Of a stretch of 64,000 bases of DNA, positions 19,506 to 22,099 are shown one piece after another. The position numbers and the translations under genes are program-made. The notes beneath the pieces are model-generated. The model made no database searches, was not told where the DNA came from, and worked only from the letters and a program-made list of their open reading frames with translations. The first letter of the stretch is position 1, and each line of letters opens with the position of its first letter. This DNA is from Mesorhizobium sp. (GTDB lineage Bacteria > Pseudomonadota > Alphaproteobacteria > Rhizobiales > Rhizobiaceae), in assembly GCF_017306545.1 (NCBI RefSeq), contig NZ_JAFKID010000009.1, positions 116,991-180,990 of the forward strand, in the 5' to 3' direction.

Positions 19506-20408
19506 ATGAGCAGCACCGCAGCCGCGCATAAACAGACATTCAGCTCCACCATCCGGCGCGCCGCGCCGGGCGTGTCGATCCTCGACGCAACCGGCGCTTC
19601 CACGCTCGCGATCCGCGCCGGCACGACCATCGGCACCGTCGATTTTCTGGATGGCCTGTCAGTCACCCTTCCCGAACTTGTCGCCGGTACTGACTACGCC
19701 GTGCGCCTGGTCGACGGCACGCCGGTCGCCGAGGCATGCGGGGACGGCGTGCCGGCCGACGCCATCGGCGGTTTCCATTTCGCGCCGGGCGGCAACGCCA
19801 TGGCGCGCGCCGGCGGCGACGCCACGCCGGCCATCAACCCGCACTCTTGCTGGGATGCCGGTTTCCGGCCCTCGTGCCCGGATCCGCGCGGTATGGCGCT
19901 GATCGAACGCAACGGTCTGCGCTTCTGGTGCGACATCTACCTGCTCGGGACCAACCATCTGGCCAAGGGCACGTCGAGCTTCGGCCAGACAATCGCCGAC
20001 GGCCGATCCCTGCCGATCGCACCGGACGGCAAGGGCAAGGTGAAGAAGCTCGACTACGCCGCCGCCGCCGCGATATATGCGCACCACGGCAAGCAGCTGC
20101 TCGGCGCCGAGGAATTTTTCGCGATAGCAGACGGCGTCACCGAGCGCACCGCCGCCGGCGACGAGCCGGAGACGACCGGACTGGACGCACCCCGCACCAG
20201 CCGTTTCGGCATCATGCAGGCCACCGGCAATATGTGGGTGTGGGGCACGGACGGCCATCCCGACGATCCCCGCCCCTCGATCTTCGGCGGCTCCTGGCTC
20301 AACGGCTCGAACGCGGGCTCGCGCTACGCGCACCTCGTCTACTGGCCGGCCTACTCCGTCGCCGGCTTCTCCGCGCGCGGCCGCAGTGACCACATGATGC
20401 TTGATTAG
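19506..20408 (+). CDS. DGR variable protein with C-type-lectin/FGE-like C-terminal domain
   Basis: The protein has 300 residues and a clear GGAGACATCCT ribosome site. Residues 1-115 are beta-rich and of unknown family. Residues of about 120-300 resemble the formylglycine-generating-enzyme/C-type-lectin fold used by DGR targets (ATGNMWVWGTDG, then SIFGGSWLNGSNAGSRYA). Residues 265, 276, 278, 279, 282, 283 and 285-288 correspond to adenine-bearing template codons and differ from the template. No signal peptide is visible. It is likely the binding tip of a tail fibre or another displayed ligand-binder; it is not beside the tail genes in this window. Confidence 0.9.
   Translation: MSSTAAAHKQTFSSTIRRAAPGVSILDATGASTLAIRAGTTIGTVDFLDGLSVTLPELVAGTDYAVRLVDGTPVAEACGDGVPADAIGGFHFAPGGNAMARAGGDATPAINPHSCWDAGFRPSCPDPRGMALIERNGLRFWCDIYLLGTNHLAKGTSSFGQTIADGRSLPIAPDGKGKVKKLDYAAAAAIYAHHGKQLLGAEEFFAIADGVTERTAAGDEPETTGLDAPRTSRFGIMQATGNMWVWGTDGHPDDPRPSIFGGSWLNGSNAGSRYAHLVYWPAYSVAGFSARGRSDHMMLD
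20272..20393 (+). repeat. DGR variable repeat (VR)
   Basis: 122 bases match the template repeat at 20,825-20,946 (constant offset 553) except at 20298, 20331, 20338, 20340, 20350, 20352, 20358, 20359, 20362, 20365 and 20367. All eleven are adenine in the template; they read C, C, T, T, C, T, G, T, C, G and T here. The last 26 bases, where homing would start, are identical. VR ends 15 bases before the stop codon. Confidence 0.97.
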
Positions 20409-20428
20409 CCGGCGCGAAAGCGTCGGCT
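20407..20428 (+). promoter_or_regulatory. Hairpin with GAAA loop after VR (DGR homing structure)
   Basis: AGCCGGCGC, loop GAAA and GCGTCGGCT form a 9-bp stem with one G/T mismatch, 13 bases past the end of VR. In BPP-1-type DGRs a stem with a GAAA tetraloop just downstream of VR is required for efficient retrohoming. No equivalent follows the template repeat. Confidence 0.8.
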
Positions 20429-20443
20429 CGCTATGGGTCGACC

Positions 20444-20818
20444 ATGATCACCGACAATCCATCCAGCAAGACAGGTCTTGCCATCGCCGAGCGCTACGAG
20501 GCGGCGGTGGCATACCTCTACCCGATCGTGCAGCGCTGCCCGCGCCGCCACGGCAAGCTTCGGGATGCGCTGCTGACGGTGATGGTCGATCAGGTCGGCC
20601 TGCTCTACCACGCCGCGAAATCCAGGCAGGTATCGCGGCTTCACGCGGCGGACGCGAACCTCGCGACGCTGCGTTTCTGGCTCCGCTTTGCCGCCGATCC
20701 CGCCGTCAGGATCATCACGCCTGGCCAGCACCGGGCAGCCCTGAAGCTGCTCGCCGAGGTCGGCGCGATGCTGGGCAGTTGGATCGCCGGCAGCGGTACG
20801 GGTGGACGGGGTAAATGA
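20444..20818 (+). CDS. avd: DGR accessory variability determinant (Avd)
   Basis: The protein has 124 residues, all helical, which fits the barrel-forming four-helix-bundle Avd family. It has YEAAVAYLYPIVQRCPRRHG at the start, then LLTVMVDQVGLLYHAAKSRQ and LRFWLRFAADPAVRIITPGQ. Avd forms a pentamer that binds reverse transcriptase and template RNA and is needed for mutagenic reverse transcription. It lies between the variable protein and the template repeat, its canonical place. The ribosome site is weak, so expression may depend on upstream translation. Confidence 0.9.
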   Translation: MITDNPSSKTGLAIAERYEAAVAYLYPIVQRCPRRHGKLRDALLTVMVDQVGLLYHAAKSRQVSRLHAADANLATLRFWLRFAADPAVRIITPGQHRAALKLLAEVGAMLGSWIAGSGTGGRGK

Positions 20819-20824
20819 TGTCGG

Positions 20825-20946
20825 GCCCCTCGATCTTCGGCGGCTCCTGGATCAACGGCTCGAACGCGGGCTCGCGCTACGCGAACCTCGACAACTGGCC
20901 GGACAACTCCAACGACGACATCTCCGCGCGCGGCCGCAGTGACCAC
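20825..20946 (+). repeat. DGR template repeat (TR)
   Basis: 122 bases lie between avd and the reverse transcriptase, with 23 adenines of which 11 differ in VR. Variable positions fall in AAC, GAC and ATC codons of the matching frame (SWINGSNAGSRYANLDNWPD, then NSNDDISARGR), the codon choice that lets adenine changes reach many residues while avoiding stop codons. It is transcribed as part of the non-coding template RNA; the open frame across it is not taken as a gene. Confidence 0.97.
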
Positions 20947-21082
20947 GCATTCCCGGCTCGGCGGCGGCCACGGCCGCGCCGGCTCGCTTCCCGCAGGCCG
21001 CCCGGCCTGCATGGGTGGTCAGCCCGGACATCCGGCTTCGGCGAACACACGGCAGGGTCCGGCAGAGCGGGGAGTAGCGGCG

Positions 21083-22099
21083 ATGTCGTCGAAACCCGCG
21101 GCCGGCAGTTTCGCCATGGCTAGGAAGTATCGCAACCTGATCGGGCCGATCACCACGGACGCGAATATGCTGGCGGCCTACCGGCGCACGGCGCGCGGGC
21201 GCCGACTGACGTCCGGCCACCTGGAGTTCAAGGAATTCTCGCCGCTCAATCTGGAGCGCCTGGCGCAGGAGATGCGCGACGGCATCTACCGCCAGGGCGA
21301 GCCGAACACCTTCGAGATATTCGACCCCAAGCGCCGGCAGATCGCAGCACTGCCTTTTCGCGACCGTGTCGCGCAGCACGCGCTCTGCGCCGTCATCGAG
21401 CCGATCTTCGACGCGACCTTGCTGCCGCGCGCCTATGCCTGCCGGAAGGGCAAGGGCACGCATGCCGGCGCCGTCGCCGTGCAGGCCGAGCTGCGCCACC
21501 TCACGCGAAAAGGTCAGCCGATCTACGTGCTGAAGACGGATTTCAGCCGGTACTTCGCCTCCATCGAGCGCGGCGCGCTCTGGCGGCTGATCGAAGCCAA
21601 GATTTCCTGCCGTGCCACGCTGCGCCTGATTGAGGCGATGGTGCCGCGCGCCGGCATCGGCCTGCCGATCGGCAGCCTGGTGTCGCAGATCTTCGCCAAC
21701 GTCTACGCCGGCGCGCTGGATCGCCATCTGCAGCAGGATCTCGGCGAGCGCCACTGGCACCGCTACATGGATGACCTGGTCGTGCTCGGCCCGACTATGG
21801 AGCATCTGCGCCGGCTGCGCGACGACATAGAGGCGTTCTCGGCCGAGCGGCTTGGCCTCCGCTTTTCGAAATGGTCGGTCCAGCCGGCCAGCCGCGGCGT
21901 CAATTTCCTCGGCTACCGCATCTGGCCCAGCCACAAGTTGCTGCGCAAGGACAGCGTCCAGCGCGCGCGCCGCAAGATCAAGGCCTACCGGGCCGCCGGC
22001 GACACCGAGCGCCTGCAAAAATTCCTCGCATCGTGGACGGGCCACGCCCGCTGGGCCGATTCGCACAACCTCCTCAAAAGCCTTGGAGTGCAAAGATGA
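21083..22099 (+). CDS. DGR reverse transcriptase
   Basis: The protein has 338 residues from an ATG at 21,083 with GGGGAG eight bases upstream (a second ATG at 21,116 lacks such a site). It makes error-prone cDNA from the template RNA. Motif A is VLKTDFSRYF (D153), the catalytic motif C is YMDD (228-231), and GSLVSQIFANVY carries the SQ pair typical of DGR enzymes in place of the PQ of other retroelements. FLGYRI (275-280) follows. There is no maturase or endonuclease domain. It ends in an ATGA overlap with the next gene. Confidence 0.95.
   Translation: MSSKPAAGSFAMARKYRNLIGPITTDANMLAAYRRTARGRRLTSGHLEFKEFSPLNLERLAQEMRDGIYRQGEPNTFEIFDPKRRQIAALPFRDRVAQHALCAVIEPIFDATLLPRAYACRKGKGTHAGAVAVQAELRHLTRKGQPIYVLKTDFSRYFASIERGALWRLIEAKISCRATLRLIEAMVPRAGIGLPIGSLVSQIFANVYAGALDRHLQQDLGERHWHRYMDDLVVLGPTMEHLRRLRDDIEAFSAERLGLRFSKWSVQPASRGVNFLGYRIWPSHKLLRKDSVQRARRKIKAYRAAGDTERLQKFLASWTGHARWADSHNLLKSLGVQR

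Follow-up and report, generated by a model that had tools for sequence, protein, structure and literature searches.

A 64,000 nt stretch of contig NZ_JAFKID010000009.1 from Mesorhizobium sp. (hereafter the window) carries a reverse transcriptase (RT) gene a short distance upstream of a phage integrase gene, and this arrangement raises the question of what the RT does there and on which protein it acts. An initial annotation of the window had proposed that a variable protein (VP), an Avd protein, a template repeat (TR) and the RT form a complete diversity-generating retroelement (DGR) in a rhizobial prophage. Our analysis makes it highly probable that the cassette is a DGR of the type found in phage BPP-1 and that it operates by the same mechanism. 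A BPP-1-type DGR is a known kind of element; its placement beside the integrase, outside the tail genes, is unusual.

If the cassette operates as described for BPP-1, a complex of RT and Avd would bind a spacer RNA, and TR would be copied into cDNA with random bases placed opposite template adenines. The cDNA would then replace the variable repeat (VR) at the 3′ end of the VP gene and leave TR unchanged. In this way, up to 17 adenine-bearing codons of a C-type-lectin-like VP could be altered.

The repeats of a complete cassette differ only at template adenines

The components lie on the + strand in the order VP, Avd, TR and RT, all as open frames (Table 1; coordinates are window positions unless contig positions are named). 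This canonical layout had already been read from the sequence, and it is borne out by protein families, repeats and open reading frames (ORFs). Using a repeat finder without adenine bias, we searched the region 18500-23500 for direct repeats of at least 40 nt and found a single family, the VR/TR pair, whose members are 91% identical. Each of the 11 mismatches coincides with an A in TR (5 A>T, 4 A>C and 2 A>G). Adenines make up 23 of the 122 bases of TR, 11 of these 23 template adenines differ in VR, and the probability that 11 randomly placed mismatches would all fall on adenines is 9.6e-10, which rules out a chance repeat. TR matches two places in its own genome, itself and VR; together with the regional repeat search, this result rules out a second VR.

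Comparison of 40 VR codons revealed that 17 contain an A in TR and that 10 differ at present, and none can be turned into a stop codon by adenine variation. The theoretical upper bound of 4.8e13 protein variants includes three A-bearing codons of the invariant end. Matches to promoter-like sequences (1 versus 0.8 expected) and terminator-like sequences (4 versus 5.3 expected) were near chance.

Translation of TR itself was considered and rejected. The TR frame of the window is out of frame with RT and stops at 21123; compared by eye, its spacer peptide and those of the related loci L007, L008 and L009 diverge at many residues. In 10 of 30 loci (L010, L012, L014, L015, L016, L018, L023, L037, L038 and L044), an open TR frame continues through the spacer in frame with RT. 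Open TR frames are to be expected because these genomes are G+C-rich.

The RT and spacer RNA are of the BPP-1 type

The RT was called a DGR enzyme in the initial annotation on account of its SQ and YMDD motifs, both of which are visible in the translation. These motifs are diagnostic of DGR RTs. Its best match in the PDB is 8ub7, which we take to be the BPP-1 enzyme bRT (the entry is listed as ‘Reverse transcriptase’ with an Avd chain), at 390 bits versus 48.3 bits (E 7.4e-12) for the next sequence, a group II RT. The mechanical ORF list starts the RT frame at 20939, and the ATG at 21083 is the more likely start.

A maximum-likelihood tree of 36 rows, two of them group II RTs and none a retron RT, places the window RT in a 12-row clade (support 100/99) nested in a 22-row group with BPP-1 (100/99). 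The two group II intron RTs pair apart (100/100) with a branch length of 3.08, although the placement of four long rows (BKO1-TP1, Lagaffe and the two group II rows) is unsure. The RT thus groups with BPP-1 Brt and far from the two group II RTs, in agreement with its assignment to DGRs; retrons were compared through NCBIfam scores, which lie below cut-off.

The window cassette has its gene order (mtd-avd-TR-brt) and its spacer RNA family, RF03022, in common with BPP-1. The two RTs are 54% identical over 325 aa, the Avd proteins 47%, and the variable proteins 39% over VP residues 29-300. When the ORFs of the window prophage were compared with BPP-1 at E 1e-10, only VP, Avd and RT gave matches.

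Several features of the locus had escaped the initial annotation, namely the RF03022 RNA, a G/C block, a GAAA hairpin and the integrase-side location. The RF03022 match lies between TR and RT and covers the whole model (1-127), and the family is present in all seven relatives scanned. Sequence 3′ of the G/C block in VR resembles, by eye, the initiation of mutagenic homing (IMH) element of BPP-1. In BPP-1, too, the VR has a 14 nt G/C block close to its end, and an 8-pair hairpin with a GAAA loop occurs there at almost the same offset as the window hairpin. The part of PMC12875486 available to us is our source for the roles of GC14, IMH and the stem-loop at the DGR target. In the window clade, hairpins of 8-10 pairs with GAAA or GGAA loops follow most VRs; the exceptions are L010 and L023, with 5 pairs, and one VR of L015, with a 7-pair stem of another shape. 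Hairpins after the VRs of outer loci are mixed.

Relatives vary at template adenines

We sought VR/TR pairs in 36 IMG/VR loci and in BPP-1, leaving out five loci as identical to others (L011, L013, L019, L020 and L024) and finding no pair in four (L025, L039, L040 and L041). With the window added, this gave 38 pairs from 29 loci. Of their 469 mismatches, with near-duplicate loci counted separately, 451 are at TR adenines and 18 elsewhere, a proportion that is somewhat inflated at repeat ends because the pair finder penalised non-adenine mismatches more; the window pair itself came from the unbiased tool. The window clade alone (20 pairs of 12 loci) has 222 of 229 mismatches at TR adenines. Outside this count, seven of 11 loci found through genome hits were scanned, and adenine-biased pairs were present in L044, L047, L048, L049, L050 and L051, the last with 4 of 17 mismatches off A; no pair was printed for L046.

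In comparisons of near-identical loci from the environment, differences are densest in VR, and most of those in VR coincide with template adenines. Our comparisons involve loci whose RTs are 50-73% identical to the window RT, none of them from the window strain. L021 and L022 have 33 differences in 6,240 bases, of which 14 are in the 119 nt VR and 13 of these at TR adenines. Between L029 and L030 there are 32 differences in 2,588 bases, with 23 in the 121 nt VR (20 at TR adenines). The 117 differences between L026 and L027, in about 8,840 columns, include 13 in the 104 nt VR, all 13 at TR adenines, and the 282 between L026 and L031 include 14 in VR, again all at TR adenines. TR itself is unchanged in each of these four pairs.

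Eight comparisons with L007 and L009, which covered integrase, RT, Avd and the VP gene without its VR, gave dN/dS ratios of 0.08-0.32. These comparisons, together with the intact-looking cassette, suggest that the window copy would be active as well.

VP is an Mtd relative that lacks the N-terminal part

PDB matches of VP at E values up to 0.001 are to Mtd alone (six sequences, E 1.7e-50 to 1.1e-48). Residues 23-300 of VP align to residues 64-381 of Mtd; 22 VP residues precede this alignment, and residues 1-63 of Mtd have no counterpart. We take these 63 residues to hold the β-prism. VP scores 25.4 bits with the Pfam model mtd_2nd, narrowly over the cut-off of 24.6, and no NCBIfam model matched it. 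Most of its matches in phage records are Mtd or tail proteins. Neither a signal peptide nor a membrane segment was seen on inspection by eye, for which no program was run.

An AlphaFold2 model built from 26 aligned VPs has a mean pLDDT of 78.3, with at least 84 in each ten-residue block over 21-200 and less than 50 over 254-285, inside VR. A Foldseek search with this model returned Mtd as its top five matches (E 6.1e-26 to 1.2e-24; TM-score by query length 0.75-0.76), and the next match was at E 0.4. By homology to Mtd and by fold, VP is therefore a C-type-lectin protein with a C-terminal VR, the VR part being modelled at low confidence. Of the hallmarks of an Mtd-type receptor-binding protein, the N-terminal β-prism docking domain is missing and the gene lies between a repressor and an integrase, not in a tail module.

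The accessible portion of PMC10743442 describes the β-prism of Mtd as the presumed tail-fibre attachment and reports other DGR targets without it. Among these, the target2 proteins of nd4 and nd12 lack the β-prism as VP does; they also lack the β-sandwich and show no HHpred similarity to Mtd, whereas VP is Mtd-like beyond residue 22.

In two records labelled ‘Escherichia phage T7’, LR745707.1 and LR745708.1, a tail fibre gene shows 38% identity to residues 120-300 and 105-300 of VP, respectively. We guess that they are possibly engineered T7.

The cassette lies between repressor and integrase

The proposal that the DGR resides in a prophage was upheld. A prophage of 45,304 bp is flanked by two identical 47-bp copies of the tRNA-Arg(ccg) 3′ end, and its left part extends beyond the window. 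The − strand carries the late genes for head, terminase, head-tail connectors, tail terminator, chaperone and tape measure, as well as those for a J-like central fibre, a 536-aa fibre-like protein and the endolysin. No tail sheath was found among 20 window ORFs and 20 ORFs of L005 compared with PHROGs, and we therefore call the prophage siphovirus-like. On the + strand, a CI-like repressor gene precedes the DGR and the integrase gene follows it; the cassette is outside the tail operon and opposite in strand to the virion genes. In BPP-1, by contrast, the DGR sits after the tail-fibre genes on their strand. The layout suggests that the window cassette is expressed with the repressor-integrase arm and not with the late genes, and diversification may be coupled to entry into or exit from lysogeny.

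A similar position is seen in the relatives. The virion genes are opposite in strand to the DGR in all seven clade members in which one could be placed (the window, L007, L009, L012, L014, L018 and L044, whose terminase match has one stop in frame). Four others (L010, L015, L016 and L017) matched neither the terminase nor the J query and are uninformative on strand. Eleven distinct clade loci extend 1.5 kb or more past RT, and in nine of them (the window, L007, L009, L010, L012, L014, L017, L018 and L044, with L010 identified at 27% identity) an integrase gene lies 0.2-4.8 kb downstream on the same strand; L008 and L023, whose contigs end too early, were left out. No such integrase was found in L015, with about 1.6 kb available, or in L016, with about 8 kb in its twin L024. 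The integrases are of several kinds, those of L007, L009 and L014 being 83-93% identical to the window integrase and that of L017 34%, while those of L012 and L018 match the L044 integrase at 62 and 79%. Among the outer-clade IMG/VR loci queried, only L035 gave an integrase match, on the other strand, and BPP-1 gave none; little weight attaches to this result, as the annotated integrase of BPP-1 itself went undetected with the three queries.

The closest relative, L007 (IMGVR_UViG_3300022823_000013), has an RT 91%, an Avd 88% and an integrase 90-92% identical to those of the window. Unlike the window, it pairs a single TR with two VP genes (63 and 69% identity to the VP of the window), and its virion genes are those of a contractile-tail phage, with a tail sheath, a different portal and a different terminase. 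Queried at E 1e-10 with the ORFs of 60 aa or more from all but the leftmost 1.7 kb of the window prophage, the first 20 kb of L007 gave no match. L012, with an RT 74% identical, has the J fibre (50%) and terminase (47%) in common with the window. Since L007 shares the cassette and not the virion genes and L012 shares J fibre and terminase, cassette and virion module have separate histories. A Shinella pollutisoli prophage (L044) resembles the window in its RT (70-71%), in RF03022 and in a same-strand integrase after the DGR, and differs in its two VP genes and in an integrase that does not match the window integrase query.

Named phages are arranged differently. In five of six chosen from 141 records (BPP-1, YPCBV-1, VP58.5, ACA1 and FP_Lagaffe), the DGR lies 3′ of tail or baseplate genes on the same strand; the sixth, BKO1-TP1, could not be judged. 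Pseudoalteromonas phage ACA1/ACA2 and Vibrio phage VP58.5, with RTs 33-40% identical to that of the window, have a DGR in the tail module, adjacent to the antireceptor gene. According to the section of PMC10612066 consulted, their antireceptor and DGR are like those of another phage genus, as modular exchange would produce.

Two VP genes per single TR occur in 10 relatives (L007, L008, L010, L012, L014, L015, L018, L023, L033 and L044), both VRs differing from TR mainly at adenines, and L014 has small genes between its two VPs. The window has one VP gene. Such pairs are already known, since excerpts of PMC10743442 put cassettes with two targets at about 13% of prokaryotic DGR cassettes.

The element is sporadic and its host genus often carries nodA

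A related RT (E 1e-20) was found in one of 61 near relatives, which is the window's own genome, and at E 1e-60 in two of 297 sampled genomes of the order, its own and one with an RT at 44%. Related RTs are thus sporadic. The description of the phage as rhizobial holds at the level of the genus, in which 38 of the 61 sampled genomes have NodA matches, and does not extend to the window's own genome, one of the 61, in which a NodA search found no match.

In the portions of the open-licence literature at hand, neither a rhizobial-phage DGR nor an integrase-side DGR cassette was found described, and large DGR surveys may hold such loci unremarked. Neither ‘reverse transcriptase’ nor ‘retroelement’ turned up when PMC12429752, a paper on Sinorhizobium prophages, was searched for these terms. 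PMC11318856, which matched a DGR together with a lysogeny module, concerns Clostridium, as far as its excerpt goes.

What the cassette would diversify

By analogy, VP is probably a virion-borne receptor-binding protein like Mtd that would influence which cells the phage attaches to. This role is the most likely because the known relatives of VP are such proteins and because, in the part of the PMC8144416 survey available, most viral targets in DGR clades 1, 4 and 6 are annotated as tail proteins. The initial annotation had predicted a changing ligand-binding protein for the phage or the lysogen. A complete DGR with an Mtd-like VP fits this prediction; the case for ligand binding at the tail is weakened by a gene off the tail operon, on the opposite strand, whose product lacks the N-terminal part.

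Some observations weigh against this reading. The location of VP and its missing N-terminal part make it less likely that the tail-fibre arrangement of BPP-1 is simply reproduced here. On the side of activity, one assembly with one VR state is available for the window strain, so that the adenine-directed variation foreseen for populations is seen in natural relatives and not in this strain. Besides the inflation of the family-wide count described above, two further comparisons of relatives are less clean: L010 and L023 have 179 differences, with 17 in VR, of which 14 are at TR adenines and three are not, and two sites changed in TR; L026 and L028 have 362 differences, with 11 in VR, of which 10 are at TR adenines and one is not, and one site changed in TR.

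Alternatively, the DGR could work on a VP that is not a tail protein, being made by the lysogen or early in infection and having a function inside the cell or at its surface, such as superinfection control, while the cassette travels with the integration arm whatever the virion type. The opposite orientation of DGR and virion genes in every clade member that could be scored, the same-strand integrase downstream in nine of 11 clade loci, the absence of a counterpart of Mtd 1-63, and the fact that the prophage has fibre candidates of its own are consistent with this proposal, as is the occurrence of a closely similar cassette in the contractile-tail phage L007. The location, the absent domain and the presence with different tail types thus leave room for a lysogen-side role. 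However, VP has no visible signal peptide or membrane segment, its PDB relatives are solely Mtd and most of its phage matches are Mtd or tail proteins, five of the six named phages carry the DGR after tail or baseplate genes on the same strand, and targets in several DGR clades are mostly annotated as tail proteins in what was available of PMC8144416. We consider such a function unlikely.

Equally tentative is a broader scenario for the whole clade. Its DGR may have moved out of the tail module to form a cassette of the integration arm, one that sits beside several kinds of integrase in both contractile and siphovirus-like phages. Independently of tail type, it would diversify docking-less Mtd relatives, often encoded by two VP genes per template, that are made in lysogeny or in the lysis-lysogeny decision and possibly do not belong to the virion.

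It is quite improbable that the locus is a relic, formerly active here and now silent or without a host factor. The single VR state known for the strain and the rarity of related RTs in the order would fit a relic. The open frames, the intact target signals and RNA family, the low dN/dS values relative to L007 and L009, and the divergence of VR from TR at 11 template adenines speak against it. An RT from a group II intron, retron or DRT defence system beside a coincidental repeat, as general RT similarity might suggest (98.1 bits with a cut-off of 300 for group II introns, 47.3 with 200 for Drt3a and 39.7 with 235 for retrons, all below cut-off), is refuted by the adenine-only mismatches, RF03022, Avd, the bRT match and the tree.

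The locus offers several experimental openings. An intact-looking prophage with definable att sites makes DGR activity measurable outside Bordetella, in a genus with many nodA-bearing members. The integrase-side location makes it testable whether diversification is tied to lysogeny, and the occurrence of near-same cassettes in siphovirus-like and contractile phages makes it testable whether DGR targets must be tail proteins. Relatives with two VPs provide a direct test of one template serving two targets.

Neighbouring genes

Table 1. Features of the DGR cassette and the surrounding prophage
Feature	Position	Strand	Evidence or remark
VP, Mtd-like, 300 aa	19506..20408	+	PDB Mtd E 1.7e-50; phrog_11262 tail protein; Foldseek
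VR	20272..20393	+	3′ end of VP gene; 122 nt ungapped copy of TR
14 nt G/C-only block (GC14-like) in VR	20371..20384	+	Sequence read; TR has one near its 3′ end too
9-pair hairpin (one G-T), GAAA loop, predicted DGR target stem-loop	20407..20428	+	Directly after VR
Avd	20444..20818	+	NCBIfam NF033474 111.2 bits (cut-off 80); Pfam bAvd PF22296; PHROGs; PDB 4dwl E 4e-29
TR	20825..20946	+	Repeat search, VR/TR comparison and own-genome search
DGR spacer RNA, Rfam RF03022 Phage_DGR	20981..21106	+	70.8 bits (gathering 50)
DGR RT (bRT type), 338 aa from ATG 21083	21083..22099	+	PHROG 1423 E 2.5e-109; PDB 8ub7 E 8.1e-116
CI-like repressor	17805..18131	+	phrog_2328 transcriptional repressor E 2.5e-12; upstream neighbour of DGR
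About 5 small ORFs between repressor and VP	18381..19473	+	Some conserved in L007, L008, L009 or L014 (tblastn)
Small gene overlapping the integrase frame	22299..22691	+	78-91% identical in L007, L009, L014
Tyrosine integrase	22496..23593	+	Phage_integrase PF00589 58 bits (cut-off 27.1); phrog_1
attR, 47-bp repeat	23615..23661		Other copy at contig 95348-95394, at tRNA-Arg(ccg) 3′ end, outside the window
Rest of prophage in window	1..17518	mainly −	Capsid, protease, portal, terminase, antiterminator, replication, methylases, CII-like

The small ORFs between the repressor and VP are tightly packed, and a PHROG scan of four of them found no match. By eye, one has a hydrophobic C-terminal stretch, and a 28-codon frame near 18673 appears to encode a hydrophobic peptide. 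On the other side of the DGR, the small gene ahead of the integrase has no PHROG, Pfam or NCBIfam match; by its position the product would be excisionase-like. Its frame and the 5′ part of the integrase frame overlap by about 200 bp, and both frames are kept in L007, L009 and L014. The integrase probably starts at the GTG at 22496; the mechanical ORF begins at 22424.

Elsewhere in the prophage, two phage DNA methyltransferase genes lie at 8181-13509 on the − strand. One of these frames is 866 aa long and has, near its end, a match to a family of unknown function. Just beyond attR, 24058-25644 encodes a serine hydrolase akin to AmpH and class C β-lactamases, all listed matches being below curated cut-offs. 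Further downstream, at about 31-39 kb, is a kdp potassium-transport operon that is 76-78% identical to copies on Azospirillum and Rhizobium plasmids.

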